Virus record (IMG/VR): IMGVR_UViG_3300006749_000018
Span: 1-50,431 of that record
Length of the DNA stretch: 50,431 nucleotides
Source of the DNA: a virus
Reading direction: 5' to 3' (one strand)
A model generated the notes under the pieces. The model had not been told where the DNA came from, did no database searches, and saw only the letters and a list, made by a program, of their open reading frames with translations. Numbering within the stretch: the first letter of the stretch is position 1; every line of letters begins with the position of its first letter. A program made the translations under genes and the position numbers. Shown here piece by piece: positions 20,808-47,968 of the stretch.

Positions 20808-20953
20808 CCAATATACAAAAATTTTTCCCCACCTAAAAAAAATGTGATGTATTTAGCATTGGCAAGAGGTCCTATTGTTTTGCTCCCCAACTAAATTTTG
20901 GTAGGGGTCTACCCCCTATCATTAATTAATGTTTAACCTAATAATTTTACACT
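20808..20953. promoter_or_regulatory. Divergent intergenic control region between the two arms
   Basis: 146 nt separating the minus (late-type) and plus (early-type) arms. It holds one copy of the phage motif for the plus strand (20871-20900) followed by a GC hairpin TAGGGG-TCTA-CCCCCTA (20902-20918, one bulge). The minus-side promoter was not identified. It is the natural place for arm switching and could include an origin, but no iterated repeats were seen. Confidence 0.6.
20871..20912 (+). promoter_or_regulatory. Phage promoter-like motif, copy D
   Basis: CCTATTGTTTTGCTCCCC followed by AACTAAATTTTGG. It aligns with copies at 23069, 31838 and 35715 in the order CCTAt-T-rich-CTCCC-AnCT-ATTTG. 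It lies 71 nt (CTCCC to ATG) before the 97-aa gene, which has its own terminator. Confidence 0.6.
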
Positions 20954-21247
20954 ATGTACTATTTTAAAATTACTGAGAGCAACAAGGCTCTCATCACAAC
21001 AGACTCACCACTAGGTGGAGTAGAAACTATCACTAAGAAAGTTGGTGGTAGAGAAATGCAAGTCAGACAGCAAGCAGGGAATGGTAATGTCCGCTTTGGA
21101 TTTACTGCTATAAACCCTGAAGACGGAATGGCTTTAAGAGCAGAACTAAAGGTAGGAGATGAAATCCAATCATTAGAACTGACTGAGAAAAAGGTAGTGA
21201 ACCAATCAACAGGAGAAGAATTTGACAACCTGTACTGGGCACACTAA
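20954..21247 (+). CDS. Hypothetical protein, first and monocistronic gene of the plus arm
   Basis: 97 aa, no Cys, beta-rich (MYYFKITESNKALITTDS, KVGDEIQSLELTEKKVVN). No family recognised. It has its own promoter motif in front and an intrinsic terminator 4 nt behind, so it forms a separate transcript. This layout suggests strong early expression of one small product, such as a host-takeover or DNA-binding protein, but there is no direct evidence. Normal codon use for the window. Confidence 0.65.
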   Translation: MYYFKITESNKALITTDSPLGGVETITKKVGGREMQVRQQAGNGNVRFGFTAINPEDGMALRAELKVGDEIQSLELTEKKVVNQSTGEEFDNLYWAH

Positions 21248-21250
21248 AAG

Positions 21251-21275
21251 AAAGGGGAACTACATGTTCCCTTTT
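21251..21275 (+). terminator. Intrinsic terminator after the first plus-arm gene
   Basis: GGGAAC (21255-21260) pairs with GTTCCC (21266-21271) around TACAT, extended by A/T pairs, then five T (21272-21276). It ends the monocistronic unit. Confidence 0.88.
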
Positions 21276-21607
21276 TCACTTATCTAGTTCCAATGTTGGC
21301 TTTTGCAACTATTTTGCTATCAAAACAAATTAATTGTGTGTGTTACGCAGTTAAAGTGAGGCAATATATCCACAAAATACCACCTTTTACCACTAGAATA
21401 AAATAAATGCACAGTATATATATAATATAGCTAACGTAAGAGCACAAACATTAAATTGGGTTTGGTTCGGAGATTGACAATTGAGATGCAAATCATGAGT
21501 CCACGTTATATCACACTCTTATGTTAGCTTATATATAGTATTGTCTCTCTCTTATATGAAGAGTACAGTACCCGCAATATTGTTTAACCCATAATTCACT
21601 TACAGTT
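21276..21607 (+). other. Structured non-coding region
   Basis: 332 nt without a credible gene between the first terminator and the 93-aa gene. It contains the long inverted repeat at 21425-21537 and a small hairpin CTCTT-ATATG-AAGAG further right (near 21550-21565). No tRNA cloverleaf could be drawn. It may hold a phage non-coding RNA, a leader with structured 5' end, or an origin. No copy of the CTCCC motif was found here. Confidence 0.5.
21425..21537 (+). repeat. Long stem-loop: 14-bp inverted repeat with 73-nt loop
   Basis: AGCTAACGTAAGAG (21429-21442) pairs with CTCTTATGTTAGCT (21516-21529) with a single G.T pair, and the stem continues into A/T tracts (ATATATA type) on both outer sides. 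The loop holds GGTTTGGTTCGGAGATTGAC and ATTGAGATGCAAATCATGAG. The pairing is better than expected by chance at this length and spacing. Confidence 0.65.
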
Positions 21608-21889
21608 ATGAAAATAAAATATATAAAACCAGGTGCTTTTGTTAAGCACAATAATGAGATTGGTGTTACATTAGTAGCATCAAACAATGATGCCGTAGTC
21701 AACTTCTTTGATGAGTATGGTGATCATAGAATAGTTCAAGCTCAAGATGTAGAATACCCAGAAGATGTGGAGTTACAGAATGAGTTATTGTTAAACCGTG
21801 GACTTAGAGAGTTAGCCTTGAATAATAATCTAATACAGATTGATACTTGGGGTGATGATTATCTAAGTCTTGTAATGTCATTTGCCTAA
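21608..21889 (+). CDS. Hypothetical protein, 93 aa
   Basis: Starts MKIKYIKPGAFVKHNNEIGV, a small beta-barrel-like N-terminus (KOW/SH3-like in appearance) followed by an acidic helical C-terminus (NELLLNRGLRELALNNN). Soluble, no Cys, no motif strong enough for a family. It starts the envelope cluster and ends 1 nt before the next ATG. The leader upstream includes the stem-loop region. Confidence 0.55.
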   Translation: MKIKYIKPGAFVKHNNEIGVTLVASNNDAVVNFFDEYGDHRIVQAQDVEYPEDVELQNELLLNRGLRELALNNNLIQIDTWGDDYLSLVMSFA

Positions 21890-21890
21890 T

Positions 21891-22046
21891 ATGAGAAAAT
21901 TAATGTACGTTGTAGTGGCTCTATTCGTTTTAGGGCCAGTACTAACATCTTGTAGCTCATCCAGAGGAATGTGTAAAAGTAAAAAGAAATACTATAAAGC
22001 ACAGAAATGCTGGAATGCTAAGAAGCAAAAGTATACAAGATGCTAA
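21891..22046 (+). CDS. Small lipoprotein, 51 aa
   Basis: ATG at 21891, TAA at 22044-22046. Signal peptide MRKLMYVVVALFVLGPVLTSC with lipobox LTSC (Cys21), then a short basic mature part with three more Cys (GMCKSKKKYYKAQKCWNAKK..C). A mature chain of about 30 residues is too short for an enzyme. Probably a lipid-anchored peptide in the host envelope; a role in superinfection exclusion is a guess. It is overlapped by the next tiny gene. Confidence 0.65.
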   Translation: MRKLMYVVVALFVLGPVLTSCSSSRGMCKSKKKYYKAQKCWNAKKQKYTRC

Positions 22047-22111
22047 GCTTAATCATAGGTATAGCCTACTTACTATTAGTAGGCTTATACCTTTACTTAC
22101 ACACTAAATAA
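22040..22111 (+). CDS. Tiny membrane peptide, 23 aa
   Basis: ATG at 22040 overlaps the end of the lipoprotein gene and TAA is at 22109-22111, 1 nt before the next ATG. The product is nearly all one transmembrane helix (LSLIIGIAYLLLVGLYLYL) with a HTK tail. Too short to prove, but the exact fit between genes argues for it. Confidence 0.45.
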   Translation: MLSLIIGIAYLLLVGLYLYLHTK

Positions 22112-22112
22112 T

Positions 22113-22559
22113 ATGAAATATTTATATATCATTGCTTTATCGTTGAGTTTTATTTCTTGTAACTCTGATGATGACATAGCAATACTTGAGTCAGAAGTAT
22201 TTATATATACTATTGACCCTAACAAGGAACAGTATGAAGGAGACATGAGTGATTACCAGTATCTGTATTTAGCACATACAAGTGATAAATCATGTGAAAC
22301 TTTAGCTGATTGGACTACTTATAACTATACATCTAATGGACCATTGTCATATGAAGACTATTTAATCTATTATTTTCTACCTCCTTACTCTATAGGATAT
22401 GGTAGTAAACCGGATTATAAAATATTCAGTAACAATATCTATGATATAGAAGTAGATTCAACGGAGATCAGTTGCAATAATAATATTGGTGAGTCATTAC
22501 TCATTACTAATATGAGCACGCTGATTGAGAATGGAGACCTTATTATTAACTTAAATTAA
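22113..22559 (+). CDS. Surface-type lipoprotein with acidic export signal
   Basis: 148 aa. Signal peptide MKYLYIIALSLSFISC with lipobox FISC (Cys16), directly followed by NSDDD. In Bacteroidota an acidic run right after the lipid-bearing Cys is the lipoprotein export signal that sends lipoproteins to the cell surface. The mature part is acidic and Tyr/Ser/Asn-rich, with two further Cys. It is no known enzyme. Encoded with other envelope peptides early in the plus arm, it is a good candidate for blocking a receptor against superinfecting phages; this role is inference. Confidence 0.7.
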   Translation: MKYLYIIALSLSFISCNSDDDIAILESEVFIYTIDPNKEQYEGDMSDYQYLYLAHTSDKSCETLADWTTYNYTSNGPLSYEDYLIYYFLPPYSIGYGSKPDYKIFSNNIYDIEVDSTEISCNNNIGESLLITNMSTLIENGDLIINLN

Positions 22560-22564
22560 AAAAT

Positions 22565-22885
22565 ATGGATAGTCCTTTTATTAAGAGGTTACTCAAGTTT
22601 ATACTTGTGGTACTTCAACCTTTGTGTGCTGTTTGGTTAATCCAAGTAGCAATCATTGATTACAGCTGGTTACCTGCACTATGTGTAGCACCAGTAATGT
22701 TTCTATCATCAATAGTGCATTTAGCATTACTTGATAGAATTAAAATCTTACCTAGCATAAAATTTACCAAGAAATCACAGATTGGCTTTTCAATAGGCTT
22801 ATCATCTAATGGATCTCTTGCAATCTTAGTTCCTTTCTTATACTTAGTAATAAGCTATAATGAAGATACGGCCCTTGAATTATGA
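22565..22885 (+). CDS. Membrane protein with three to four helices
   Basis: 106 aa. Hydrophobic stretches at about residues 10-28 (LLKFILVVLQPLCAVWLIQV), 32-54 (SWLPALCVAPVMFLSSIVHL) and 75-98 (IGFSIGLSSNGSLAILVPFL). No charged residue pattern of a transporter is seen. Five nt behind the surface lipoprotein gene, so the two are probably made together. Could be a holin-like or exclusion membrane protein; undecided. Confidence 0.6.
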   Translation: MDSPFIKRLLKFILVVLQPLCAVWLIQVAIIDYSWLPALCVAPVMFLSSIVHLALLDRIKILPSIKFTKKSQIGFSIGLSSNGSLAILVPFLYLVISYNEDTALEL

Positions 22886-22909
22886 CACCAGTGTCGTACT
22901 AATAATAAC

Positions 22910-22926
22910 ATAGTATTATATACTAT
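22910..22926 (+). promoter_or_regulatory. AT-rich hairpin in the leader before the DUF4846 gene
   Basis: ATAGTAT-TAT-ATACTAT, a 7-bp perfect inverted repeat, flanked by a looser outer ACTAAT/ATTAGT pair. No T tract, so not a clear terminator. May be an operator or a chance AT palindrome. Confidence 0.3.
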
Positions 22927-23068
22927 AATAACATTAGTATTAAGGCTAAAGAATAATTGGTTAGGTAAGTGATAACCATTGTGTGAGATGGAGCAGTTAC
23001 TTATAGTTAGTTTTTGTTTAGTATAATTTTAATTTTTCATGGATACTGCTCCTGACCACACATATTTA

Positions 23069-23110
23069 CCTAATTATTTTTCTCCCAAGCGGAGATTTGC
23101 TAACATTTTA
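23069..23110 (+). promoter_or_regulatory. Phage promoter-like motif, copy A
   Basis: CCTAATTATTTTTCTCCC then AAGCGGAGATTTGCTAACA. It sits inside the longest frame of the next gene, which supports the later ATG at 23123 as the true start, 41 nt after CTCCC. Confidence 0.65.
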
Positions 23111-23122
23111 ACACTTATAACA

Positions 23123-23905
23123 ATGAAAAATATAATTTATTTACTGTGCTTGATGATAAGTATACCTGTATCAGCACAAATTGCAAAATGTCAATCAAGT
23201 AAGACTATAAAATGCTTGTATAAAAAGCCTAAGCAGGCTAAGAAGTATGAAAGATTTCAAGATGCGTTCTCAGAATGGATAGCAGATCATCCATTAAAGA
23301 GAGATGACGTATTAAAATATCATACAGGAGCAATAAAGTATATTGCACCTAATGATGTATATGATGCTGTATTTGATTATGAGATTGGCCCTTTAGATTT
23401 ACATCAGTGTGCAGATGCAGCTATGTATCTATGGGCATCGTATAACTACAGTAATGGGCCTGAATTCTATGAAAGACTAGTATTTAATGGTGCAGATGGT
23501 ACTGAATATAACTATCTAGGCTATTTAGAAACATCAGGTAAAGAAGATAACTGCAAAACATTCAGAAGATGGCTTGATCTTGTGTGGACTTATGCTAATA
23601 CATGGTCTATATCAGAATATAACCTTGTTTCTGTACCTATTTGGGATATCCAACCAGGTGATGTGTTAATTGTAGGTGGTTTTCCTGGGCATGCAGTAAG
23701 CGTTGTGGATGTGTTGTTAGACTCTGAGACAGGACATAAGTATTTTATGTTAGCTCAGAGCTTTATGCCTGCTCAGGAGAATCATATACTTAAAAATCCT
23801 GCAACAGGAGATGTGTGGTATCAAATAGAAGCATATATGACACATGTTAGAACACCACAATATACGTTTCACATAAATGATTTAAAAAGATGGCGCAACA
23901 GATAG
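23123..23905 (+). CDS. Secreted DUF4846-family protein
   Basis: 260 aa from ATG 23123; the frame is open to 23039, but only the later start gives a signal peptide at the N-terminus (MKNIIYLLCLMISIPVSAQ) and it leaves the promoter motif upstream. The mature part follows the DUF4846 pattern of Bacteroidota: FDYEIGPLDLHQCADAAMYLWASY, then LDLVWTYANT, GDVLIVGGFPGHAVSVVD, YFMLAQSFMPAQENHILKN and a WY...TP ending. The Cys in QCADA and the His in GHAV resemble a papain/NlpC-type Cys-His pair, so an enzyme acting in the periplasm or on the surface is possible. It overlaps the next gene by 16 nt. Confidence 0.75.
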   Translation: MKNIIYLLCLMISIPVSAQIAKCQSSKTIKCLYKKPKQAKKYERFQDAFSEWIADHPLKRDDVLKYHTGAIKYIAPNDVYDAVFDYEIGPLDLHQCADAAMYLWASYNYSNGPEFYERLVFNGADGTEYNYLGYLETSGKEDNCKTFRRWLDLVWTYANTWSISEYNLVSVPIWDIQPGDVLIVGGFPGHAVSVVDVLLDSETGHKYFMLAQSFMPAQENHILKNPATGDVWYQIEAYMTHVRTPQYTFHINDLKRWRNR

Positions 23906-24372
23906 AAGTACCAATACCCTTTGACACTGCATACAAGCTCATTAGAAGTGGGCTTGTAGAGCATGTCAACAGAGATGCAGTAGCAGAATGCTTAATGGAG
24001 ACTATGGATAAAGAAAGTATAGCAATAGTTATTATGCTACTGCAAGAATCTGAACCATATGTACCTTTACTACCAGGTGATTATGTAAAATTTCACCGTA
24101 AATCAGCATACTTTGCAGATAAATATGACACTGATGTCCTTTTAGACATGGGATTGATGGTTGATGATTATATGTTTGGTAGAATACCATATAAAGATGA
24201 TTATGGTAATACACCTAAAAGATTTAGTCCAAGACAGAGTGTAGAATTACTTGTTTATAATAACAAAAAAGAGTATGACACTGAAAATATGAGACTAGAT
24301 ACACATAATCTTACATATGTTGCAGAAGATGACATTCCTTATCTGAAAAACAAACGTGCACAAGATATATAA
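23890..24372 (+). CDS. Hypothetical protein, 160 aa
   Basis: Soluble, mildly acidic. N-terminal helices (VPIPFDTAYKLIRSGLVEHV, ESIAIVIMLLQESE) followed by a beta part with LPGDYVKFHRKSAYFADKYD. No family recognised. It overlaps both neighbours (16 nt with DUF4846, 17 nt with the HTH gene) and so belongs to one translation-coupled unit. Confidence 0.55.
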   Translation: MAQQIEVPIPFDTAYKLIRSGLVEHVNRDAVAECLMETMDKESIAIVIMLLQESEPYVPLLPGDYVKFHRKSAYFADKYDTDVLLDMGLMVDDYMFGRIPYKDDYGNTPKRFSPRQSVELLVYNNKKEYDTENMRLDTHNLTYVAEDDIPYLKNKRAQDI

Positions 24373-24610
24373 GAGATTTGGTATAGTTAACTGGGAAGTT
24401 ATGTCTAATCCTTCTATTAAACCACAAGAAAAAGCATTGTATTCTATATTATGCGTCTATTGTGGAGATAAAAGAGAGTGTTTCCCATCTATATCAACAC
24501 TTGCAGATATAATGGACTTGAGTCAGCGTCAAGTAAATAGATTAATAAAAAATCTTAAGATTCATGGCATTATTGCAAGAAAAGGACGTAAAATCCTTTT
24601 ATTAGATTAG
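24356..24610 (+). CDS. Helix-turn-helix protein (HTH_36-like)
   Basis: 84 aa. Pattern of the winged-helix family used by DnaD/replication initiators: IKPQEKALYSILCVYCGD, then CFPSISTLADIMDLSQRQVNRLIKNLKIHGII (recognition helix near QRQVNRLIKNL). It consists of the DNA-binding domain only, without the extra C-terminal domain of RepA or DnaD. It could regulate the plus arm or help open an origin. It lies just before a 113-nt leader with a hairpin, a possible target. Confidence 0.75.
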   Translation: MHKIYKRFGIVNWEVMSNPSIKPQEKALYSILCVYCGDKRECFPSISTLADIMDLSQRQVNRLIKNLKIHGIIARKGRKILLLD

Positions 24611-24613
24611 TGC

Positions 24614-24634
24614 GTTAGCTATTATTATGCTAAC
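24614..24634 (+). promoter_or_regulatory. Hairpin in the gap after the HTH gene
   Basis: GTTAGC (24614-24619) and GCTAAC (24629-24634) around a 9-nt AT loop. No T tract follows. Possible operator or weak pause site in the 113-nt gap 24611-24723. Confidence 0.35.
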
Positions 24635-24723
24635 TATTTACCAATTGAGCCGGTAATATACACTATTAAACCAGTAAGACTGTATAATTTTTGTTACTTT
24701 TGATTTGACTCAGATGTAATAAG

Positions 24724-24999
24724 ATGATACTACAACTCCCAAATGGCAGAATTATAGAATGTTCGGTAGAACAGTACTTATCTATGTCAGATCAGGAGAT
24801 AAAAGACCTTAATGGTATTGGCTCAGCATATACAAAAGAAGTAGGTAACCCATTTTATGGTTTGTATGCTAATACAACGTTAGCACGCAAAGAAGCTATG
24901 GAAGATATGAAGTCAGAAAGGGAATATGAACCCAGACTAGATGAAGTATCTGATGTAGATAAAATGAATGATGACTACTTTCACTCAGATGATATCTGA
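24724..24999 (+). CDS. Hypothetical acidic protein, 91 aa
   Basis: Begins MILQLPNGRIIECSVEQYLSM, a short beta hairpin and helix seen at the start of small phage proteins, and ends in a highly acidic tail (DEVSDVDKMNDDYFHSDD). No motif. Monocistronic-looking with 113 nt before and 34 nt after. Confidence 0.55.
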   Translation: MILQLPNGRIIECSVEQYLSMSDQEIKDLNGIGSAYTKEVGNPFYGLYANTTLARKEAMEDMKSEREYEPRLDEVSDVDKMNDDYFHSDDI

Positions 25000-25033
25000 T
25001 TAATCAATTTTTTCACCTTTTAATATTTTAATT

Positions 25034-25627
25034 ATGTCAACAGTCAAAATTATGGCTGATGAACTAGGCAATGTAATTCGCCAGTCATCAAACAATCCTG
25101 AGTTTGGATACATCAGACTCACACAAAAAAGAAGAGTTATTAAACCTAATAACTTTGTAGACGTCAAAAATCTATCAACATTAATCCACGGTAAACTAGA
25201 AGATCTGGAAGCTACAGGCCTACAGCATACAAAAGAGATATCCGGTAAGATATATGTTATAGAACAAGTAACACCATTCAGTGAAGAAAACCCTGATAGG
25301 GATCTTAAATACGCTGGTACAACAGGAGTTATATGTGCAACCCAAGATGGGGAACCTATTTATAGGAAAACATTCTATACAGAAGACCAGAATGTATCTG
25401 ACACATTAATTGCTCATGCTAATGGTGATGCTATTAGAGAAGCTAACGGTACCTCAGCTAAGATTATGAAGGAAGTAAATGAAAAGCAAGTGGATTTAGA
25501 AGATTCAATTGCTGAAGTTGAAGGAGAAACAGAGGTAACAGATACACTTGTATCTGAAACAGAGGTAGTTGCTGAAACTCCTGTAGAAATTACAGAGGAT
25601 GAGGGCATTGAGTCCTTTGATCTGTAG
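25034..25627 (+). CDS. Hypothetical protein with acidic tail
   Basis: 197 aa. A basic, beta-rich body (GYIRLTQKRRVIKPNNFVDVKN; TPFSEENPDRDLKYAG) followed from residue ~145 by a Glu/Val/Thr-rich acidic tail with repeats of ETEV and ending in IESFDL. A basic domain with an acidic tail is common in nucleic-acid-binding phage proteins. Function unknown; the tail may be disordered. Confidence 0.55.
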   Translation: MSTVKIMADELGNVIRQSSNNPEFGYIRLTQKRRVIKPNNFVDVKNLSTLIHGKLEDLEATGLQHTKEISGKIYVIEQVTPFSEENPDRDLKYAGTTGVICATQDGEPIYRKTFYTEDQNVSDTLIAHANGDAIREANGTSAKIMKEVNEKQVDLEDSIAEVEGETEVTDTLVSETEVVAETPVEITEDEGIESFDL

Positions 25628-25639
25628 TATCTACTCATT

Positions 25640-25705
25640 ATAAATACAAAAATCATTTGTGCTAGCACTTATGCTTGATCATACGGTTTGGAGCCCGGTA
25701 TTTAT
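25640..25705 (+). other. Possible stem-loop in the gap before the 172-aa gene
   Basis: ATAAATAC (25640-25647) pairs with GTATTTAT (25698-25705) and encloses the palindrome GTGCTAGCAC (25659-25668) and a GATC-centred arm. The gap 25628-25742 holds nothing else recognisable. May be regulatory; could be chance. Confidence 0.35.
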
Positions 25706-25742
25706 ATTTATCACTTATGTATAACCCTATAATAATAATAAT

Positions 25743-26261
25743 ATGTTTAATCCACAACAAATACAATCACTGAAACAACATCAAATAGAACAGTCAATTA
25801 TAGATACAGAAAAAAGACTAAACTATTATGGTATACTATCAGAATACCAGTTACATCCTAAAGATTTAGTTCAAAACTTGAGCTATCGTAAACTTAATCC
25901 ATATCAACACTTTTTGTTTAAACGTGTACTACATGGTTTAAACATGTATAATGCTGAAGATAAGGCTAAGTTACATTGGGATAAGAAAAGAAGGATAACA
26001 AGAGTATGGAAACGTGCTCAAAAGGAAATAAATAATTGGAAACAAATTATTTGTAATAAGAAAGTAAATGCTTATTTTAGAGAGACATTTACAGGGCCTA
26101 CTGCTGAGTATATTATATCTATACCACCAGAGGAAACATTAGAAAATTTTACTAATACTATGACACTAAGAGATCTTGGAATTACATATGAAGACGTAAT
26201 ACTTAGATTTATGCAGAAAGGATTATTACCAAGAACATTCTTAACGTTGAAAGCAGCATGA
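25743..26261 (+). CDS. Hypothetical basic protein, 172 aa
   Basis: Lys/Arg-rich, helical (KRRITRVWKRAQKEINNWKQ). Contains LSYRKLNPYQHFLFKRVLHG and ends PRTFLTLKAA. No known motif; a basic surface suggests nucleic acid binding. Its stop overlaps the ATG of the HNH-like gene (ATGA). Confidence 0.55.
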   Translation: MFNPQQIQSLKQHQIEQSIIDTEKRLNYYGILSEYQLHPKDLVQNLSYRKLNPYQHFLFKRVLHGLNMYNAEDKAKLHWDKKRRITRVWKRAQKEINNWKQIICNKKVNAYFRETFTGPTAEYIISIPPEETLENFTNTMTLRDLGITYEDVILRFMQKGLLPRTFLTLKAA

Positions 26262-26683
26262 AAATTAAGAAGAAACTATGCTATAGTTGTGATACTGAGC
26301 AAGTTATATGGAAGAATCATGAAGGTAATAAGTATTGTAAAATCTGTTGGTTTAAAATTAAACAAGAAGATAATTTTAAATCAGATTACTATAGAAAATA
26401 TAGTAAACCTAGACAAAAGATTAAATCTATGTCTAATAAGATGCAGAAAACTGAGAGGGCTTACAGCGTATTACGCAAAGCCTTCTTAGAACAGCATCCT
26501 GTATGCAAAGCCAGCTTAGTTAAATGCACGGTTAAAGCTACAGATGTGCATCATATGAAGGGAAGGGGTAAATATCATCTTGATACTACTACATGGCTTG
26601 CAGTGTGCAGACCATGTCATATGTTTATAGAAGAGAACCCTGATCTTGCTAATGAATTTGGATTTTCAAAATCAAAACTATGA
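26258..26683 (+). CDS. HNH-type endonuclease-like protein with N-terminal zinc finger
   Basis: 141 aa. The N-terminal CYSCDTE...CKIC pair (residues ~8-31) is a zinc finger. The C-terminal part has the HNH/zinc fold: FLEQHPVCKA, C, TDVHHMKGRGKYHLD, TTWLAVCRPCHMFIEENP (about 80-130), with the DVHH motif and CRPCH. The usual Asn/His of the third motif is within CHMFIEEN. Such small HNH proteins are common in Bacteroidota phages; the role may be DNA packaging or recombination, or a homing-type nuclease without target data. Confidence 0.7.
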   Translation: MKIKKKLCYSCDTEQVIWKNHEGNKYCKICWFKIKQEDNFKSDYYRKYSKPRQKIKSMSNKMQKTERAYSVLRKAFLEQHPVCKASLVKCTVKATDVHHMKGRGKYHLDTTTWLAVCRPCHMFIEENPDLANEFGFSKSKL

Positions 26684-26787
26684 ATAATAATAAAAAAGAC
26701 TGGAACTGGTTTGCAATAATAACCTGGTCTATAATACTTTTATTTACATATACACTATGGAAGTACATAATAAAACTGTTCCTGTGA
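26680..26787 (+). CDS. Small membrane protein, 35 aa
   Basis: ATG at 26680 overlaps the HNH stop as ATGA; TGA at 26785-26787, overlapping the helicase start by 31 nt. Polar start MNNNKKDWNW, then one membrane helix (FAIITWSIILLFTYTLW) and a basic/hydrophobic end. The ATGA coupling supports it. Unknown function. Confidence 0.45.
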   Translation: MNNNKKDWNWFAIITWSIILLFTYTLWKYIIKLFL

Positions 26788-27884
26788 ATAAAGATAGGGA
26801 TGTTATACAAAAAGATGCATTGTCTATAGCAGTGCAGCATAAAAGATGTGGTCTTGGGATATCAATGGGTGTAGGTAAAACACGTATTGCTATAGAGCAC
26901 CTCAAAAGAAATTATCATCCCCTTATACAAGTACTTGTAGTAGTGCCTAAGAATACAGTTAAGCAATCATGGATTGATGAACTTAAAAAAATGAAGGCTT
27001 TACATCTAAGAGGACATATTATATTTAGTACATATCTCTCTTTAAATAAACAAAATCCAAATGAATATGATATTGTTTATTTAGATGAGTGTCATAGCCT
27101 ATTAGAATCACATAAAAGTTTCTTAGATGCTTTTAACGGTAAGATACTTGGCCTTACAGGTACACCGCCAAGAGTAAAAACAAGTGAGAAAGGACGTATG
27201 GTAGCAAAGTATTGTCCTATTAAATACACTTTTTCAGTTGATGATGCAACTGATTCAAAGATCTTAAATGATTACCAAATCATTGTACACCAACTTGAGT
27301 TGTCTGACTTAAAAACATTAAAGAAGAAAACTAAAGATGGTAGGCAATGGTATACTTCAGAGAAGAAAGACTACGCATATGTAGTACAAAGAGTAGTGGC
27401 AGCTCAGACTCAGAAACAAATGCAGTTTGCATCTATAATGAGAATGAGAGCACTGATGGATTACAGTACAAAAGAAACCTATGTAAAGGACCTACTTAGG
27501 AAAGTAAAAACAAAGTGTATTGTATTTGCAAATACTATGGATCAGGCTGATAGAGTCTGCAGGCATAGTTATCATTCAAAAAATCCAAACTCTGAAGATA
27601 ATCTTCAATTATTTAGTGATGGACGGATAGATAAACTATCTTGTGTATTACAACTTAATGAGGGTGTTACTATTCCAGGCCTAAAGCAAGGCATTATTAT
27701 GCATGCATATGGTAATGAAAGGAAGACAGCACAAAGAATTGGTAGATTATTAAGGTTAAATCCATCAAATACTGCAGTGTGTCACATATTGTGTTATAAA
27801 AATACACAAGATGAGACTTGGGTAGCCAAAGCACTAAAGGATTTTGATGAAAATAAAATCAAATATTATAATCCAACAATATAA
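26757..27884 (+). CDS. Superfamily 2 DNA/RNA helicase
   Basis: 375 aa, compact. Motif I GISMGVGKT (34-42), motif Ia-like VLVVVPKN, motif II DECH (110-113), motif III GLTGTP (~132-137), and in the second RecA domain CIVFANTMDQADRV, LNEGVTIPG and motif VI QRIGRLLRLNPS (~335-346). DECH-box helicases of this size in phages act in replication fork remodelling or recombination, as UvsW does. It precedes a zinc-ribbon gene by 3 nt. No nuclease domain is attached. Confidence 0.85.
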   Translation: MEVHNKTVPVNKDRDVIQKDALSIAVQHKRCGLGISMGVGKTRIAIEHLKRNYHPLIQVLVVVPKNTVKQSWIDELKKMKALHLRGHIIFSTYLSLNKQNPNEYDIVYLDECHSLLESHKSFLDAFNGKILGLTGTPPRVKTSEKGRMVAKYCPIKYTFSVDDATDSKILNDYQIIVHQLELSDLKTLKKKTKDGRQWYTSEKKDYAYVVQRVVAAQTQKQMQFASIMRMRALMDYSTKETYVKDLLRKVKTKCIVFANTMDQADRVCRHSYHSKNPNSEDNLQLFSDGRIDKLSCVLQLNEGVTIPGLKQGIIMHAYGNERKTAQRIGRLLRLNPSNTAVCHILCYKNTQDETWVAKALKDFDENKIKYYNPTI

Positions 27885-27887
27885 TTT

Positions 27888-28468: not shown

Positions 28469-28469
28469 T

Positions 28470-28751: not shown

Positions 28752-29124
28752 CCTACATGCAAGACTAGTGGTAAACAATGGTAAGCTTGACTTTCCTAGT
28801 AAGCCACAAGAAACTAGATTTAATGCATTTCTAAAAGAGATACCTGATGGTACACCAATAGATATATTTATGGGTGTAAGTACGGATAAGGGTAGCAATG
28901 CTCAGCTTGCTAGAGTACATGCTATGATCCGTGAGCTTGCACAATATATAGGATATACTTTTGAAGAAGTAAAACTACAAACAAAAAGAAAAGCAGGATT
29001 ATGCTTTGTTAGAGATAAGCAGGAGTATTGCAAAAGTTTTGCAGAGTGTGATAGGGACGAACTAAATTTAGTAATTCAAGCTCTTGTAGAAATGGGAGAC
29101 TTCAATGGAATGCAGTTAAGATAA
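28741..29124 (+). CDS. Hypothetical protein; weak NinB-like resemblance
   Basis: 127 aa. LARVHAMIRELAQYIGYTFEEVKL and KSFAECDRDELNLVIQALVEMG recall NinB-type recombination proteins, whose helices lie at similar places, but the match is weak. It lies directly before the uracil-DNA glycosylase region. Its stop (29122-29124) touches the stop of the opposite-strand gene at 29125, so the two genes converge with no gap. Confidence 0.5.
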   Translation: MKNNLHARLVVNNGKLDFPSKPQETRFNAFLKEIPDGTPIDIFMGVSTDKGSNAQLARVHAMIRELAQYIGYTFEEVKLQTKRKAGLCFVRDKQEYCKSFAECDRDELNLVIQALVEMGDFNGMQLR

Positions 29125-29544
29125 TTATTTATCTTTCTTTGCTGCTTCTTGTTTAGCCTGTATATCTGCAAAGAACTCTTTATATAAATCAGTTTGTGTA
29201 GCAGTATCATTTTCAAGTATACTCTTTGTAAGTTTACCTAATAAGTCTGTATCCATTTCAACATCAGACTCTTGATAAAGACCCTGGTCATTAGCATATG
29301 CAGCAAAAGTTTGTAGTAAAGAATAAATGATCCATGTGTGGTATTCATACCATTTAAGATCTAATTTCTTTTCATCTAACTCACCGCTAAGCATTCTTTT
29401 GAACTTGTTTAGTGTGGCTGATACATCTTCTGACTTAGGATACACTTGATCAATATAGTATAACATTATTGATTGCAGTGCAGGAATATAATCTGAATGA
29501 ACAGTAATACCTGTGATTGATTTTTTTTCTAATTGTTTTGCCAT
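29125..29544 (-). CDS. Hypothetical protein, the only minus-strand gene inside the plus arm
   Basis: 139 aa, helical, acidic. Contains IPALQSIMLYYIDQVYPKSE, KWYEYHTWIIYSLLQTFAAY and a basic end (KQEAAKKDK). No family recognised. Stop abuts the stop of the plus gene to the left; its start is only 22 nt from the start of the UDG gene, so those genes diverge and the UDG promoter, if any, must lie inside this gene or upstream. Clean coding sequence without breaks; the reversed orientation suggests separate insertion or a separate expression time. Confidence 0.65.
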   Translation of the reverse strand: MAKQLEKKSITGITVHSDYIPALQSIMLYYIDQVYPKSEDVSATLNKFKRMLSGELDEKKLDLKWYEYHTWIIYSLLQTFAAYANDQGLYQESDVEMDTDLLGKLTKSILENDTATQTDLYKEFFADIQAKQEAAKKDK

Positions 29545-29566
29545 GAGGTAAAAATATTTAAAATTT

Positions 29567-30253
29567 ATGAATGAACCAAATATATTATATATAATTAATA
29601 AAATAAAAGAAAAAGTGAGTAGCTCAGATTGGGCACCTCACTTACAACCGTGGCTTGATTCAGCTGATCACTACAATGTCGTAAAAGCCTTAAAATCAGC
29701 TAATGAATCAGGAGTAAGATTTACTCCAAGGTATGGTGATGCTTATAATGCATTCCTACATTGCCCGGTTAAACAACTGAAGGTTGTGATGATAGGGCAA
29801 GACCCCTATCCTCAGCCTGACGTTGCTGATGGAATAGCATTTAGCTGTAGCAAGAAGGGTAAACCTGAAGCTAGTTTACGCTATATATTTAAAGCGCTAG
29901 ATACACCGGATGCAAATCCAGATCTAAAGAGATGGGCTGAACAAGGCGTGCTACTACTTAATACGGCTATGACAGTAGAGGTAGGTAATATTGGTTCTCA
30001 TTATGAAATGTGGAAACCTTTTACATCTTCTCTCCTTACAGAGATTAGCAACATGGACCCACAGATTTGTGTTGTTGGTCTGGGTAAAAAAGCACAAGAA
30101 TGGTTAGGTTACTTTCCCTTCGCACATAAAATAGAAGTGTCTCACCCAGCTAGTGCTGCCTATCGTAAAGGTGGAACGTGGGACCATCAGAACGTATTCA
30201 ATCGTATAAATGAATACTTAACTTGGCAAGGAAAAGACTTGATTAAGTGGTAA
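29567..30253 (+). CDS. ung: Uracil-DNA glycosylase, family 1
   Basis: 228 aa, normal length. Motifs: VVMIGQDPYPQPDVADGIAFS around residues 73-93 (GQDPY with the water-activating Asp; the usual next His is Pro), GVLLLNTAMTV (~121-131) and KIEVSHPASAAYR (~186-198, catalytic His). It removes uracil from DNA. It precedes the helicase/loader genes and follows the convergent 29125-29544 gene. Presence of a phage UDG argues against uracil in the phage DNA and fits repair of deaminated cytosine. Confidence 0.88.
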   Translation: MNEPNILYIINKIKEKVSSSDWAPHLQPWLDSADHYNVVKALKSANESGVRFTPRYGDAYNAFLHCPVKQLKVVMIGQDPYPQPDVADGIAFSCSKKGKPEASLRYIFKALDTPDANPDLKRWAEQGVLLLNTAMTVEVGNIGSHYEMWKPFTSSLLTEISNMDPQICVVGLGKKAQEWLGYFPFAHKIEVSHPASAAYRKGGTWDHQNVFNRINEYLTWQGKDLIKW

Positions 30254-30269
30254 GCTTTTCGTATATTTG
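30239..30269 (+). promoter_or_regulatory. Bacteroidota-type promoter candidate before the loader/helicase pair
   Basis: TTG (30239-30241), 20 nt spacer, TATATTTG (30262-30269), which is an exact TAnnTTTG. The ATG follows at 30290. It overlaps the end of the UDG gene. This fits the -33/-7 rule of Bacteroidota housekeeping promoters. Confidence 0.5.
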
Positions 30270-30289
30270 ATAACCTTTAAAACCAATAT

Positions 30290-30880
30290 ATGTGGGACTT
30301 TTTTCAGATAATTACTAAGTCTGGTATGACTCCAAATGAGTGTCTTTCACTCTTTGCAGTACATATGAAGATTACACCTCACTATGGTAATAATATCAAT
30401 AGTTTAATAAACAAAGGATTAATTGAATTTGATGATAAAAAACAGCATTATGTAATTACAAATGATGCTAAAGATATTATGACCAAGTTAGACAACTATT
30501 TTCTTAAAGCAAAAAAGAAAACGGATATACAACTTTTGGGAAAAGACTTTGTAACATTAATTAATAATTACAGAGAGATATTCCCAGCTAAGAAATTACC
30601 TAGCGGTAAACCTGCAAGAAATAATGTAAAAGCTTTAGGCACAGCATTCAGATGGTTCTTTGAAACCTATAGTTATGATTGGGCCACTATATATAAAGCT
30701 ACTAAGATGTATGTAAATGAATACAGAGACAAAGATTATTTATATATGCAGACAAGTCAATATTTTATTAGTAAACAAGATAAACACAAGGTAAAACATT
30801 CTACTCTTGCTGATTATTGTGATATGATACTAGAAGGTATTGACACAGAAGATGAACATTTTAAAGAAAAAGTAGTATAA
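30290..30880 (+). CDS. Putative replicative helicase loader / helix-turn-helix protein
   Basis: 196 aa. Helical N-terminus (TPNECLSLFAVHMKITPHYG then SLINKGLIEFDDKKQHYVIT) looks like a winged helix, followed by a central helical region and a C-terminal part with RWFFETYSYDWATIYKATKM. It is joined by TAATG to the DnaB-like helicase gene. A gene directly before the helicase that has a wHTH-like head is a common place for a loader or primosome protein. Inferred from context; no AAA+ domain present. Confidence 0.5.
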   Translation: MWDFFQIITKSGMTPNECLSLFAVHMKITPHYGNNINSLINKGLIEFDDKKQHYVITNDAKDIMTKLDNYFLKAKKKTDIQLLGKDFVTLINNYREIFPAKKLPSGKPARNNVKALGTAFRWFFETYSYDWATIYKATKMYVNEYRDKDYLYMQTSQYFISKQDKHKVKHSTLADYCDMILEGIDTEDEHFKEKVV

Positions 30881-31836
30881 TGGCAAAAGCAAAAGAAGCT
30901 TGGGTAGGGCAATACGCTGCCTTCAATGAAGCACTTAAGTATATGTACCGTAGACAAACCGGTGAGGAAAAGTCTATATATACTCCTTGGCCTAAGTTTA
31001 ATGATGCTACAACTGATGGATTAGAATGGAATACTCTTACAGTTATAGGTGGTAGACCTGGTTCAGGTAAAACACTTATTAAAGATCAGATAGTAAGAGA
31101 ATCATTTGTATTAAATCCAGCAGATGACTTTAGAGTATTAGAGTTTCAGTTTGAGATGGTTGGTAGAACCTCAGCAATTAGAGAGTTCTCATCAATCACA
31201 GGTAAAACATATAAAGAATTATGTAGTGCCGGTAGTAAACTAAAGACAGATATTCTAAATAAATGTCATGCTTATGCTAAAGAAAGGGTCAAGCACCCTG
31301 TAGATATAGTAAGTAAACCTTTGACTGTAAATCAAATGCGTGATCAGATAGATATGTATATGAATTTACATAAGGGTGCTAAAACTATAATAACACTAGA
31401 TCATACCATGCTTGTTAAAAGAGCACCTTATCAGAATAGTAGCTTAGATATGCTATTTGAGTTAGGTGAATTCTTTACACAGACAAAGCGTGAGTATCCA
31501 TGTTTGTTTGTTGTTATCTCACAATTAAATAGAAACATTGATAACCCTGACAGGGCTGTTGATGGTAAGTATGGTAACTATGTACTTGAGTCAGACATAT
31601 TTGGCTCAGATGCAATGTTACAACATGCTGATACATTAATTGGTATAAATAGACCAGCAAAACAAAAGATTAGATTCTATGGGCCAGATAGGTATATCAT
31701 AGAAGATGATAGAACTCTTGTATTACATTTCTTGAAAGCAAGAAACGGTGATGCTAGAATGAGTTTCTTCAAGGCTAAATTTGAACAAATGGAAATAGCT
31801 GAGATGAAAACACCTGAACAACAGCAACGGAGATAA
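30880..31836 (+). CDS. DnaB-like replicative helicase (RecA/SF4 core)
   Basis: 318 aa. Walker A GGRPGSGKT (57-65), a conserved EFQFEM after it, Walker B TIITLDHTM (about 167-175), and VVISQLNRNIDNPDRA (about 203-218) with the H4-type SQL(N)R. The C-terminal part contains LHFLKARNGDARMSFF, the arginine-finger region (KxRxG) of DnaB. The N-terminal collar domain of cellular DnaB is missing, as in T7-type helicases without the primase half. It unwinds the fork together with the primase at 33875 and polymerase at 43453. Confidence 0.85.
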   Translation: MAKAKEAWVGQYAAFNEALKYMYRRQTGEEKSIYTPWPKFNDATTDGLEWNTLTVIGGRPGSGKTLIKDQIVRESFVLNPADDFRVLEFQFEMVGRTSAIREFSSITGKTYKELCSAGSKLKTDILNKCHAYAKERVKHPVDIVSKPLTVNQMRDQIDMYMNLHKGAKTIITLDHTMLVKRAPYQNSSLDMLFELGEFFTQTKREYPCLFVVISQLNRNIDNPDRAVDGKYGNYVLESDIFGSDAMLQHADTLIGINRPAKQKIRFYGPDRYIIEDDRTLVLHFLKARNGDARMSFFKAKFEQMEIAEMKTPEQQQRR

Positions 31837-31837
31837 A

Positions 31838-31880
31838 CCTATTTATTTTTCTCCCCAGCTGCTAGTTGCACGTTTAAAAA
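31838..31880 (+). promoter_or_regulatory. Phage promoter-like motif, copy B
   Basis: CCTATTTATTTTTCTCCCC then AGCTGCTAGTTGCACG. The start codon of the 176-aa gene is 37 nt after CTCCC. It begins just behind the helicase stop and heads the operon with the Sak4-like and SSB-like genes. Confidence 0.65.
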
Positions 31881-31887
31881 TTATTAA

Positions 31888-32418
31888 ATGATAAGTACTA
31901 AAAATAAAAGTTATATGTCACCAGATGAAAGAAAAGCAAAAGTTAAAAAGTTGCGTGAGACACACCAAGCGTGGTTTAATGACAACAAGTTAACTGATGC
32001 ACTATACATACCTAAGATGGCTTACAGGCCACCTGGTAAGGATGAACTGCATGTCAGCTTCTTTCCTAGTGAACTAGAGAAAGATGAAGACGTGTACACT
32101 GAATTTGTAAGTATTGATTATGAATCAGAAGACCCAAAAAGGACTTTATATCTACATAAACGTAATTCACATTGGCGTGAAGAATATGAATTAGTAGAGA
32201 GTAAGTCTGGTTATCAAAGACATTTGATACCGGTCAGTGAATTAGTAGTGATTAGAGATATCACAGACAATGCAGCAAAAGTTATAGAAGACTTTGCTAA
32301 CTTGCCTGATCCTGATAATAAAAAAGATCCTACTGTTAAAGATGTGCTTGGAGAGATTAATGCTTCTTTACAAGCTATAAATAAAACAATGTATCACATA
32401 TTAAATAAAATGAATTAA
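31888..32418 (+). CDS. Hypothetical protein preceding the Sak4/SSB pair
   Basis: 176 aa. Basic N-terminus (SPDERKAKVKKLRETHQAWF), beta-rich middle with ELHVSFFPSELEKDEDV, and a helical C-terminal end (LGEINASLQAINKTMYHILN). No motif. Zero gap to the Sak4-like gene (stop then ATG), so it is likely part of the recombination or DNA-binding set. Confidence 0.55.
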   Translation: MISTKNKSYMSPDERKAKVKKLRETHQAWFNDNKLTDALYIPKMAYRPPGKDELHVSFFPSELEKDEDVYTEFVSIDYESEDPKRTLYLHKRNSHWREEYELVESKSGYQRHLIPVSELVVIRDITDNAAKVIEDFANLPDPDNKKDPTVKDVLGEINASLQAINKTMYHILNKMN

Positions 32419-33102
32419 ATGGCACAATCTGTATTAATTATTGCTGACTCAGGCACAGGTAAATCAACAAGTATGAGACACCTAGATCCTAAGTCAACTG
32501 TTATAATCAACATTGCTAATAAGCCTTTACCTTTTAAGGGCTGGAAGAGCAAGTATACTGTAATGAACAAAGATAATCCAAAGGGTAATCTTGTAGCTGT
32601 TTCATCTGCTGCTGGTATAGGCAAAGCAATGAAACATGTAAATGATAATATGCCTCACATCAAGACATTAGTTGTTGATGACTGGCAATATATGAGTTCT
32701 TTTGAATACTTTGATAGAGCAAATGAGAAAGGCTATGATAAGTTCACTCAAATAGCGGCTAACCTTGCACAAATAGCAAAGATGCCTAAAGATATGAGAG
32801 ATGACCTTACTATATATTTCTTAACTCACTCAGAAGATTCAACTGATATTAATGGTAACCGTAGAGTTAAAGCAAAAACTGTTGGTAAAATGATAGATAA
32901 TGCATTAACTTTGGAAGGTCTCTTTAGTATTGTCCTATTTGGGAAAGTAGTAAAGGATGACAAGGGTGTATATCATTATGGGTTTGACACCCAAAACAAT
33001 GGAGAAAACACATGTAAATCTCCAATGGGTATGTTTGAAGATTCATTCATACCAAATGATCTTGCATACGTGAATAAATGCATAGATGAGTATAATAATT
33101 AA
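32419..33102 (+). CDS. Sak4-like RecA-fold ATPase
   Basis: 227 aa. Walker A ADSGTGKST (9-17), Walker B TLVVDDWQYM (about 82-91) and LTIYFLTHSED (about 133-143, sensor His/Ser). This size and pattern fit the short RecA-like Sak4 recombinases, which work with SSB proteins in single-strand annealing. The next gene encodes an SSB-like protein, the usual partner. It probably drives recombination-dependent replication or repair. Confidence 0.8.
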   Translation: MAQSVLIIADSGTGKSTSMRHLDPKSTVIINIANKPLPFKGWKSKYTVMNKDNPKGNLVAVSSAAGIGKAMKHVNDNMPHIKTLVVDDWQYMSSFEYFDRANEKGYDKFTQIAANLAQIAKMPKDMRDDLTIYFLTHSEDSTDINGNRRVKAKTVGKMIDNALTLEGLFSIVLFGKVVKDDKGVYHYGFDTQNNGENTCKSPMGMFEDSFIPNDLAYVNKCIDEYNN

Positions 33103-33124
33103 TTAATTAAAATTTAAAGAAAGT

Positions 33125-33802
33125 ATGTTAAGTACAAAAGACATGTCCGCTGGAAGCGGCAGAGTAAAACCAGTAATGGGTTCAGGTAACAATGTTATCA
33201 GAATCAACAGTGTAACATTTGATGTTACTCCATATGATGCAGATGCATATAATATTGTATTACATGTAGAAGGTAAACCAGAAGAAGGAGAATTCCAAGG
33301 TTTCTTGAAAGATGTAGCTAATCCAGAAGGCCCAAGATATGAAGGTCAAGTTGGTAGAATTAGATTTGCTCCATATCCATACAAGGATACTACATTACCA
33401 AGTGGTGTAGAAATATCTAGAGATAATGAAGTACTTAAAGCTATGATTTATCTTAGTGAAGTACTAAATAAAAGAGATGCTTTAGATAAGATTGAGGCAA
33501 ATACCATAGAAGACTTTATGGTTGAGTGCAATAAGTTATTCTCTAACAGTGAGTTCTTTAATGCTTGTATTGGCGGTAGAGAGTGGGAAAACAAAGACGG
33601 TTATGTAAACCTAGATCTGTTCTTACCACGTATGTCAAAAGATGGGATACCATTAGAAGCTCTAAATAAAGAGAACAGCAGACTACTAACATTCAATGAA
33701 AAGGATCACTTGAGAAGAATTCAAAAGAAAGAAAGTTCTTCTACAGGTAGTTTTGAGCCAGCAAAGACAACAGTAAATGCTGGTGATGACTTTGATTTGT
33801 AA
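33125..33802 (+). CDS. Single-stranded-DNA-binding protein candidate
   Basis: 225 aa. Beta-rich N-terminal core and an acidic, Ser/Thr-rich linker leading to a C-terminal NAGDDFDL tip, the type of tail by which SSB proteins recruit partners. It sits just after the Sak4-like ATPase and before the primase, and is followed by a terminator, so the operon is 31888-33802. A functional SSB would coat the unwound strand; the family was not aligned. Confidence 0.65.
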   Translation: MLSTKDMSAGSGRVKPVMGSGNNVIRINSVTFDVTPYDADAYNIVLHVEGKPEEGEFQGFLKDVANPEGPRYEGQVGRIRFAPYPYKDTTLPSGVEISRDNEVLKAMIYLSEVLNKRDALDKIEANTIEDFMVECNKLFSNSEFFNACIGGREWENKDGYVNLDLFLPRMSKDGIPLEALNKENSRLLTFNEKDHLRRIQKKESSSTGSFEPAKTTVNAGDDFDL

Positions 33803-33816
33803 ATATTAATAATGAT

Positions 33817-33855
33817 AAGGGGTGGTTTTCGTGGTTGACTTCCACCCTTTTGATT
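33817..33855 (+). terminator. Terminator after the Sak4/SSB operon
   Basis: AAGGGGTGG (33817-33825) pairs with CCACCCTTT (33842-33850) with one bulged G and a 16-nt loop, then a T-rich run (TTTTGATTTATTTATT). It ends the unit headed by promoter copy B. Confidence 0.7.
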
Positions 33856-33874
33856 TATTTATTATATTTATAGA

Positions 33875-34852
33875 ATGCTAAATACAAAAAACTTAGTATC
33901 AAGAGAATCAAATGTACCTAGTTATTGGGTATTCCAACACTATCTAACACTATCAGAAACACTTACGGGTCAAGACATTAAAATTAAATCTGTATTTAAT
34001 CCTACTGAGAGAACACCATCAATGTGTATCTTTGTAGACAAATCTATAATGCAGTATAAATTTAAATGCTTTTCTACTGGTAAGTATGGAAGTAAGATAG
34101 ATCTTGTGAAAGAATTGTTTAGTATAGATTATTCACAAGCAGTAACCCGGATAGTAGAAGACTATAATAAATATGCTAAGACAAACGGATCTGGTAAAAC
34201 AGATTTTAAAATAGCTGCAAAATGGAAAGTTGACTTTATAAAAGAAAGAAGTTGGTTTGACATTGACGCTGAATATTGGCTAGCATATAATATTGGCAGT
34301 AGTTTATTAAAGGAATATAACGTTAGACCTATAGACTACTACAATATGGTCAAAGAAGATGATGGTGAAATCAAATCATTACAAATTAAAGGTAAACACA
34401 TGTATGGTTACTTTGATAAAGAAGGTAATATCTATAAGATATATCAACCTCTATCAAAAAGGCATAAGTTTCATAAGGTTAAACCCTATTTACAAGGATA
34501 TGACCAATTGAAATTCAATCAGCCTTATTTAGTTATATGTTCATCACTTAAAGATGCAATGTGTCTTAAGAGCTTTGGGTTCAAACTTGAAGTAATTGCA
34601 CCTGACAGTGAGAATACAATAATAAAACCGTATATTGTTGAAAATTTAAAGAAGAAGTATAAGAAAGTAATAACATTGTTTGACAATGATGAAGCAGGCA
34701 AAAAAGCTATAGATAAGTATAAAGAGATGTATAACTTAGATGGCTGCTCACTGAATAATTGTAAAGATATTTCAGATGCTGTAAAGCAACACTCTGCACA
34801 AACAATTGCACATTCTCTTAGATCTCTTTTAATAACAACCTTAAAACAATAG
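33875..34852 (+). CDS. DnaG-type DNA primase
   Basis: 325 aa. It has TOPRIM motifs: YLVICSSLKDAMCLKS (about 216-231; in phage primases this takes the place of the Glu motif) and VITLFDNDEAGKKAIDKY (about 265-282, the DxD-type motif). The N-terminal part contains FNPTERTPSMCIF and YKFKCFSTGKYGSK, the CHC2-type region in degenerate form. No zinc-binding Cys4 set is complete. It makes RNA primers with the DnaB-like helicase. Two nt separate it from the RusA-like gene. Confidence 0.8.
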   Translation: MLNTKNLVSRESNVPSYWVFQHYLTLSETLTGQDIKIKSVFNPTERTPSMCIFVDKSIMQYKFKCFSTGKYGSKIDLVKELFSIDYSQAVTRIVEDYNKYAKTNGSGKTDFKIAAKWKVDFIKERSWFDIDAEYWLAYNIGSSLLKEYNVRPIDYYNMVKEDDGEIKSLQIKGKHMYGYFDKEGNIYKIYQPLSKRHKFHKVKPYLQGYDQLKFNQPYLVICSSLKDAMCLKSFGFKLEVIAPDSENTIIKPYIVENLKKKYKKVITLFDNDEAGKKAIDKYKEMYNLDGCSLNNCKDISDAVKQHSAQTIAHSLRSLLITTLKQ

Positions 34853-34854
34853 TT

Positions 34855-35325
34855 ATGAAGTGGTTTATACCAGGTAATGTACCAAGTAGTAAGAACGGAA
34901 GAAGATGGACAGGCAAATATTTTATTGCAAGTAAGACTGTAATGAATTATAGAAAGAAAACAAAACAGTATTTTGAACAATATGGTCCTTTGTTTGCAAA
35001 GGAACTTGAAAAATACAAACTCCCTGTCAAAATAGCTTTCACTTTTATTAGAGGTACAAGACACAAGTTTGATTATATAAATCCTGCACAAACAATACAG
35101 GATGATATGGTTAAGCACGGATGGATTGAAGATGATGATATGAATCATATAGTACCAGTGTTCCCTGAATACAGGTATGACAAAGTAAATCCAGGTGTAT
35201 TTATAGAAATCTTAAAAGAAGAAGAAGAAAATGTACAATCAAAAGGACATAGAAAAGACAAACATATTAAAGACAGCACTACTTCAAAAGCTAAAAGATC
35301 AAGGAATAGCAGAAATACAAATTAA
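34855..35325 (+). CDS. RusA-like Holliday junction resolvase
   Basis: 156 aa. N-terminal FIPGNVPSSKNGRRW (residues ~4-18), TFIRGTRHKFDYINPAQ (~61-77) and DDMVKHGWIEDDDMN (~81-95), the acidic motif with several Asp, followed by VFPEYRYDK. It fits the RusA/endodeoxyribonuclease pattern. It would cut recombination or packaging intermediates. The C-terminal ~35 residues are basic and run out of frame over the start of the next gene (95 nt), so this tail may be an overprinting by-product. Confidence 0.75.
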   Translation: MKWFIPGNVPSSKNGRRWTGKYFIASKTVMNYRKKTKQYFEQYGPLFAKELEKYKLPVKIAFTFIRGTRHKFDYINPAQTIQDDMVKHGWIEDDDMNHIVPVFPEYRYDKVNPGVFIEILKEEEENVQSKGHRKDKHIKDSTTSKAKRSRNSRNTN

Positions 35326-35704
35326 TTTCTCTGGTTCTGGTGACAGTGGGGATATAGATGAAGTAGAATATATAGACATGAATGGACTTAGTTCATGGCA
35401 ACAAGGGTATCAAGGCCCTGAGAATCCAAATGAAACTGAAGATCAAATAAGAGACCTATTCTATGATAAGGTAGATTATGAAGCGTGTAAGCACGGTGAC
35501 TGGGTAAATAATGAAGGAGGTTATGGTAACTTGACTATAAATACAGATACCGGTTCATTTGAGCTTCAGTATTATCAAAGAACTGTAGAGTCTTATACAA
35601 GTGAAGGTGACTCAGTGTTTGATAAATTTGACAACAGTTTTGATGATATACCATTACAATATAAAGTAAGGATGGGTCAGCTGCCTGGTACATACCAGCA
35701 GTAG
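35231..35704 (+). CDS. DUF6878-like protein
   Basis: 157 aa from ATG at 35231. Its core QINFSGSGDSGDIDEVEY (about 29-46) and YDKVDYEACKHGDWVNNEGG (~76-95) match the pattern remembered for DUF6878. The N-terminus overlaps the RusA-like gene by 95 nt in another frame; no later ATG keeps the GSGDSGD core, so the overlap is real unless a non-ATG start is used. Function unknown. Confidence 0.6.
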   Translation: MYNQKDIEKTNILKTALLQKLKDQGIAEIQINFSGSGDSGDIDEVEYIDMNGLSSWQQGYQGPENPNETEDQIRDLFYDKVDYEACKHGDWVNNEGGYGNLTINTDTGSFELQYYQRTVESYTSEGDSVFDKFDNSFDDIPLQYKVRMGQLPGTYQQ

Positions 35705-35714
35705 ATTTTTTTGT

Positions 35715-35756
35715 CCTATTTATATTTCTCCCTAGCTGAAATTTGATAATTTATTT
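35715..35756 (+). promoter_or_regulatory. Phage promoter-like motif, copy C
   Basis: CCTATTTATATTTCTCCC then TAGCTGAAATTTGATAATT. The gene start is 30 nt after CTCCC. It heads the VWA/MoxR operon. Confidence 0.65.
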
Positions 35757-47423: not shown

Positions 47424-47521
47424 CATGGGAAATTGTAATTAGCGTTATAATTTTATATGTTTGTTTAAGCTTGGTCTTTTCAGACAAGTGGCACAAGTAT
47501 TAGAGTTTGAAGGGGTGTAAC
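47420..47521 (+). CDS. Tiny membrane peptide, 33 aa
   Basis: ATG at 47420 overlaps the previous stop as ATGA; TAA at 47519-47521. One membrane helix (WEIVISVIILYVLFKLGLF) and a short polar end. The stop codon lies at the edge of the terminator stem 47511-47568, so ribosomes reaching the stop would touch the hairpin. Function unknown. Confidence 0.45.
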
Positions 47522-47967: not shown

Positions 47968-47968
47968 T

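Follow-up and report, generated by a model that had tools for sequence, protein, structure and literature searches.

The locus considered here raises two questions, namely whether a motif recurring ahead of genes in a phage genome constitutes a promoter class of its own and, if so, which RNA polymerase reads it. The window, i.e., the whole stretch of DNA analysed, is a virus record of 50,431 bases and corresponds to about half of the ~110-kb genome of a marine crAss-like phage. Its helicase and terminase match those of crAss-like phages at 25-35% identity, and the CrAss_Ring_1 and CrAss_Ring_2 domains are present in proteins of the window and of its near-twin G001. The latter is a near-identical contig of 109,954 bp (99.9% identity over 48,976 bp), which extends the window, and a further genome of 114,106 bp, G002, is colinear with the window and ~80% identical to it. 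More distant relatives were gathered by a helicase scan, from which 80 of ~600 were brought in. Regarding the genome layout, structural genes run leftward and replication genes rightward, and giant leftward ORFs lie beyond the window's end. Two adjoining fibre-like structural genes on the minus strand of G001 (48032-50197 and 47002-48012) have a 131-bp stretch in common at 75% identity, which suggests an old duplication. In crAss-like phages, early genes are reportedly transcribed by a giant RNA polymerase that the phage injects. A motif that is conserved, confined to one strand and provided with an invariant base as its predicted start would offer a short test template for the purified enzyme; it would also mark early and middle operons across a large family of marine phages not yet cultured.

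Four copies ahead of rightward genes

An earlier note on this DNA had described plus-strand copies of the motif at 20871, 23069, 31838 and 35715, and all four are confirmed. Site A (20871-20900), located where the leftward structural module and the rightward module diverge, exhibits a form shorter by 1 nt, i.e., CCTATTGTTTTGCTCCC (short-gap form CCTATTGTTTTGCTCCCCAACTAAATTTTG; core TGCTCCCCAACTAAATTTTG at 20881-20900; invariant G at 20900), which is kept in the divergent region of relatives. Downstream lies the first gene of the rightward module (20954-21247, plus strand), encoding a protein of 97 aa with no match in Pfam or PHROG; genes like it also come first after site A in relatives. It is followed by a non-coding stretch of 360 nt (21248-21607), part of which is conserved in G002. 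Site B (23069-23099; CCTAATTATTTTTCTCCCAAGCGGAGATTTG; invariant G at 23099) precedes the plus-strand gene of a DUF4846 protein (23123-23905), the start of which was shifted from the first ATG at 23039. Site C (31838-31868; CCTATTTATTTTTCTCCCCAGCTGCTAGTTG; invariant G at 31868) is located between the gene of a DnaB-like helicase and the next gene, encoding a 176-aa protein (31888-32418, plus strand) and itself followed by an AAA ATPase gene. Site D (35715-35745; CCTATTTATATTTCTCCCTAGCTGAAATTTG; invariant G at 35745) precedes the gene of a DUF6915 protein (35759-36106, plus strand).

From the motif start to the ATG, the distance is 83 nt at site A, 54 nt at B, 50 nt at C and 44 nt at D, i.e., 44-83 nt rather than the 30-71 nt originally given. 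Tandem genes flank sites C and D, which follow the preceding stop at 1 and 10 nt, respectively, so that a clear operon head is found only at A and perhaps B, instead of at three copies as had been claimed. Scanning the window for CCTATTTATTTTTCTCCC with up to three mismatches returns three of the four copies and no other match, with 0.02 expected.

Conservation and shape of the motif

The matrix scan proposed in the earlier note was run with a 31-nt matrix over both strands of the two ~110-kb genomes, G001 and G002: the three strong sites score 39-47 bits, everything else, including the variant at 20871, scores 15.2 bits or less, and shuffled sequence reaches up to 15.4. With the refined pattern TKCTCCCnAvC[TG]-N7-G, exactly four sites are found in each of G001 and G002, at the same orthologous places and all rightward, with no match on the minus strand and none for the reversed pattern (0.05 or fewer expected). 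Such repeated placement on one strand before genes, far above chance, is what a promoter class would produce, and it agrees with the original judgement that a chance origin is unlikely; equally good matches that fall within genes or on the minus strand, which were to count against the proposal, occur in neither full-length relative. Conservation of the motif against diverged flanks is likewise observed. At sites B-D, 20-21 of the 22 nt of the core are identical between G001 and G002, versus 10-11 of the 40 nt upstream, which is the chance level; at site A, where the core is kept entirely (21 of 21), the flank is also conserved (38 of 40 upstream), and the site is kept family-wide.

In the wider family, 31 distinct instances give the consensus TKCTCCCnAvCTR, followed by six variable AT-rich bases, the last mostly a pyrimidine, and by a G. 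The instances are related, so that their counts are not independent, and the leading T and K (positions -2 and -1 of the pattern) deserve less weight since they were partly imposed by the search. The final G, placed 17 nt past the beginning of CTCCC, lay outside the search pattern and is present in 30 of the 31. The CCTAwTTATwTTT half, by comparison, is specific to the subclade of this phage; its CCTA part is missing from relatives that retain the middle block. As for the ATTTG end, regarded in the earlier note as part of the motif and as resembling a -7 element, relatives keep only YG of it, and it was rejected as what defines the 3' end. As a search handle, the upstream half of site A, GCATnnnnnAGAGGnnCTA, proved too loose.

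The strand bias extends to the relatives. Over 963 kb of helicase loci, CTCCCnArC[TG] has 26 matches, all on the gene strand (plus) and none on the minus strand. A set of 20 long relatives yields 18 matches to CTCCCnArCTR, spread over nine records, mostly as one or two copies per record and as four in G008, always on the strand of the rightward module, with a single match in total for the reversed pattern. Only four of the 11 long relatives devoid of an exact match contain the divergent region, as judged from coordinates; three of these carry a site A variant in place, and the fourth stretch, L167, ended short of site A. The helicase locus of that same record, L065, does hold a site-A-like instance. 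Nearly all long relatives with a readable divergent region carry the site A element there. A second copy of the motif is found ~520 nt past site A in some relatives (240 nt in G008).

Two further motif scans of viral contigs returned 75 and 47 stretches, with 96 of 127 matches outside ORFs according to our own ORF calling. For matches with a nearby start, the distance from the G to the ATG clusters at ~54-64 nt, which corresponds to site A, and at 36-38 nt, which corresponds to the second copy downstream of it. Matches inside long ORFs of unrelated-looking contigs, one of 64% G+C, look like chance. Around the helicase of gut crAss-like relatives, no copy of the motif was found in the ~17 kb examined. 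Site C is confined to the subclade, L041 and the L097/L099 group carrying variants of it; in most other relatives, the helicase stop runs straight into the next gene without site C, which points to a discrete gain of this site.

Candidate polymerases for a proposed phage-specific promoter class

Considering orthologous conservation, strand bias, placement before genes and the conservation of host-type promoters elsewhere in the genome, there is good support for the motif as a candidate promoter class that is specific to the phage and differs from the host TAnnTTTG type, and it very probably works as a promoter. Two other classes coexist with it in the same genomes, which argues for a separate class. 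On the one hand, TTTGTATATTA-like elements are found 12-103 nt before leftward genes at about nine intergenic places, mostly conserved in G002. In the window, they precede leftward structural genes on the minus strand at 3172-3182, 4547-4557 and 20809-20819; in G001, such promoter-like elements are on the minus strand at 1727, 3102, 19364, 53619, 53684, 86689, 102191 and 103117. The element at 20809-20819, TTTGTATATTG, is of a late, promoter-like type and faces leftward, away from site A; relatives, too, have TTTGTATATTA-like elements pointing leftward from site A. On the other hand, TAnnTTTG host-type sites are conserved between G001 and G002 before several genes. In Bacteroidetes, primary-sigma promoters have TAnnTTTG at -7 and TTTG or TTG 17-23 nt upstream. 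None of the four motif sites appears in the TAnnTTTG scan, in line with the poor fit to the TTG/TAnnTTTG pattern remarked upon earlier, and a promoter of this host type was rejected, the misfit at the four sites standing against the conservation of TAnnTTTG elsewhere in the genome. Unlike in Bacteroidetes primary-sigma promoters, the conserved bases of the motif lie between the would-be -33 and -7 elements. A sigma-54 promoter was also rejected: such promoters have -24/-12 elements of the TGGC/TTGC type, and CTCCCnAvCTR-N6-G contains no GG/GC pair at the corresponding spacing.

As regards the polymerase, it had been argued that no phage RNA polymerase is encoded and that the host RNA polymerase, assisted by a phage factor, would be used. 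This argument fails, as it rested on a truncated window: the window is a fragment, the polymerase lies in the missing half and was missed for this reason, although the phage-specific promoter class proposed along with it stands on conservation, strand and placement. In G001, an ORF of 2480 aa on the minus strand (65373-72815) contains GADFDIDK, matches genes annotated as RNAP subunits in crAss phages and shows 42% identity over 64 aa (E 2e-10) to gp66 of phi14:2 (PDB 6vr4). A promoter for a crAss-type virion polymerase requires that such a polymerase be encoded by the phage, as is found here. Homologues were detected in 11 of 19 long relatives by genome search, and a viral-contig scan with an RNAP fragment matched only two genomes. 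Whereas the ORF has 2480 aa in G001, its counterpart in G002 and other relatives is contained in one longer ORF of ~4300-5058 aa, the corresponding ORF being found in G002, G007-G011, G013, G015-G017, G019 and G026. A T7-type RNA polymerase gave no match in G001 and G002, in a search whose control gave no response either.

In phi14:2, the early operon is reportedly transcribed by the virion polymerase, and crAss001 is thought to behave alike (PMC8375218). The present phage resembles both in its CrAss_Ring_1 and CrAss_Ring_2 domains, its terminase and helicase matches and a comparable gene order, with a divergent head, leftward giant genes and a DFDID polymerase homologue (PhicrAss001 gp47/49/50). 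Site A, at the divergent head, is placed comparably to the early operons of phi14:2 and crAss001, as judged by position alone. Given that the polymerase is encoded and that site A heads the rightward module in a comparable way, the motif is most plausibly read by the crAss-type polymerase of the phage itself, with a probability of about 0.5. In such a scheme, TKCTCCCnAvCTR would cover approximately -19 to -7, the six AT-rich variable bases -6 to -1, and the invariant G would be at, or next to, the start, the G itself being the presumed +1. The motif would be read by the two-barrel RNA polymerase, probably by the copy that is injected along with the DNA; site A would initiate early transcription at the divergent head of the rightward module, and sites B, C and D would be extra copies of the subclade, through which the segments of DUF4846, the replication ATPase and DUF6915 would come under common control. 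The leftward structural genes would depend on the TTTGTATATTA class and some genes on host-type TAnnTTTG promoters. More tentatively, at somewhat less than even odds, TKCTCCCnAvCTR-N6-(+1)G could represent the first promoter sequence for a crAss-like giant virion RNA polymerase, present across the marine family and acquired at further places as a discrete unit.

Phi14:2 and crAss001 possess the polymerase but not the motif, so that specificity would need to have diverged; the same motif would be expected in both only if it had not. Pairwise searches of these two genomes for a repeated motif before genes gave nothing clearly above shuffles beyond two pairs in phi14:2, one ribosome-site-like and one coding-like, with best scores of 20.1-20.2, slightly past five shuffles. 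A limited literature search, outside of which the 2021 structure paper fell, found no published promoter sequence for a crAss-type polymerase. For the virion RNA polymerase (vRNAP) of the Thermus phage P23-45, a motif upstream of transcription starts is kept only in relatives bearing this polymerase (PMC10770324). The two cases are alike in that a short conserved motif lies upstream of early starts, predicted ones in the present phage, across relatives with a virion polymerase. They differ in that the P23-45 motif is AT-rich and unrelated, with starts mapped by cappable-seq and polymerase occupancy by ChIP-seq (PMC10770324), whereas the present proposal is drawn from sequence. The analogy with T7-type RNA polymerase promoters is limited to the working layout. 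These promoters combine a contiguous specificity block at about -17 to -7, an AT-rich melting stretch and an initiating G.

The main rival, which we consider rather unlikely, is that the host RNA polymerase is redirected by a phage factor, i.e., an alternative sigma, an appropriator or an activator, binding CTCCCnAvCTR in place of a -33 contact, much as MotA of T4 acts at middle promoters. The subclade form is compatible with it, as the span from CCTA to the final YG is 30-31 nt, presumably close to the Bacteroidetes -33/-7 geometry; on the contrary, the -7 half has shrunk to YG, relatives retain the middle block but not CCTA, and the conserved core has a length of only 20 nt. Since TAnnTTTG promoters occur and are conserved, the host polymerase probably serves other genes, and small helix-turn-helix proteins are encoded, with HTH_36 at 24356-24610 and a weak HTH_45 at 30290-30880; no sigma70 region 2 domain was found, however, in a search whose control worked. 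The replication genes of crAss001 are its middle genes, and its middle and late genes are attributed to the host polymerase (PMC8375218). Sites C and D stand among replication genes, and at these two sites the crAss001 precedent leaves room for the host polymerase with a phage factor.

Flanking and leader sequences

A block TGTGTTTgGCAT...AAGAGG upstream of site A (window ~20840-20870) is kept family-wide and was not seen at sites B, C and D. This extra conservation suggests more than a bare promoter and, together with the low number of copies, would suit an operator, bound by a phage repressor or activator at promoters of another kind and not itself read by a polymerase. This reading is nonetheless improbable, considering that the motif is not palindromic, that its orientation and its distance to the invariant G are fixed, and that sites B-D have no other evident promoter-like element, their upstream 40 nt being at random identity between genomes.

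In L005, L006, L007 and L011, a short AACCC...GGGTT hairpin lies directly 5' of the site C motif and is perhaps a terminator insulating the promoter; a hairpin upstream of the motif is not common to all copies. An element acting at the RNA level, within the 5' leader or between genes, i.e., translation control, a processing site or a terminator, would fit this hairpin, terminator-like with its T-rich stretch in several relatives, and the start of the motif 44-83 nt before start codons, but is very improbable, since a terminating or processing role makes little sense at site A, where no rightward gene precedes the motif in the divergent region, and a shared RNA fold was rejected, RNAalifold finding no common structure in the site A leader alignment and Rfam no match in the window.

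The leader of site A does contain, at 20900-20920 on the plus strand, the hairpin GGTAGGGGTCTACCCCCTATC, at the predicted 5' end of the transcript in a single-sequence fold. According to our own reading of such folds, with the main helix taken for the window and L037, 10 of 13 sequences have the hairpin starting no more than 2 nt from the invariant G, as would be expected at a transcript 5' end.
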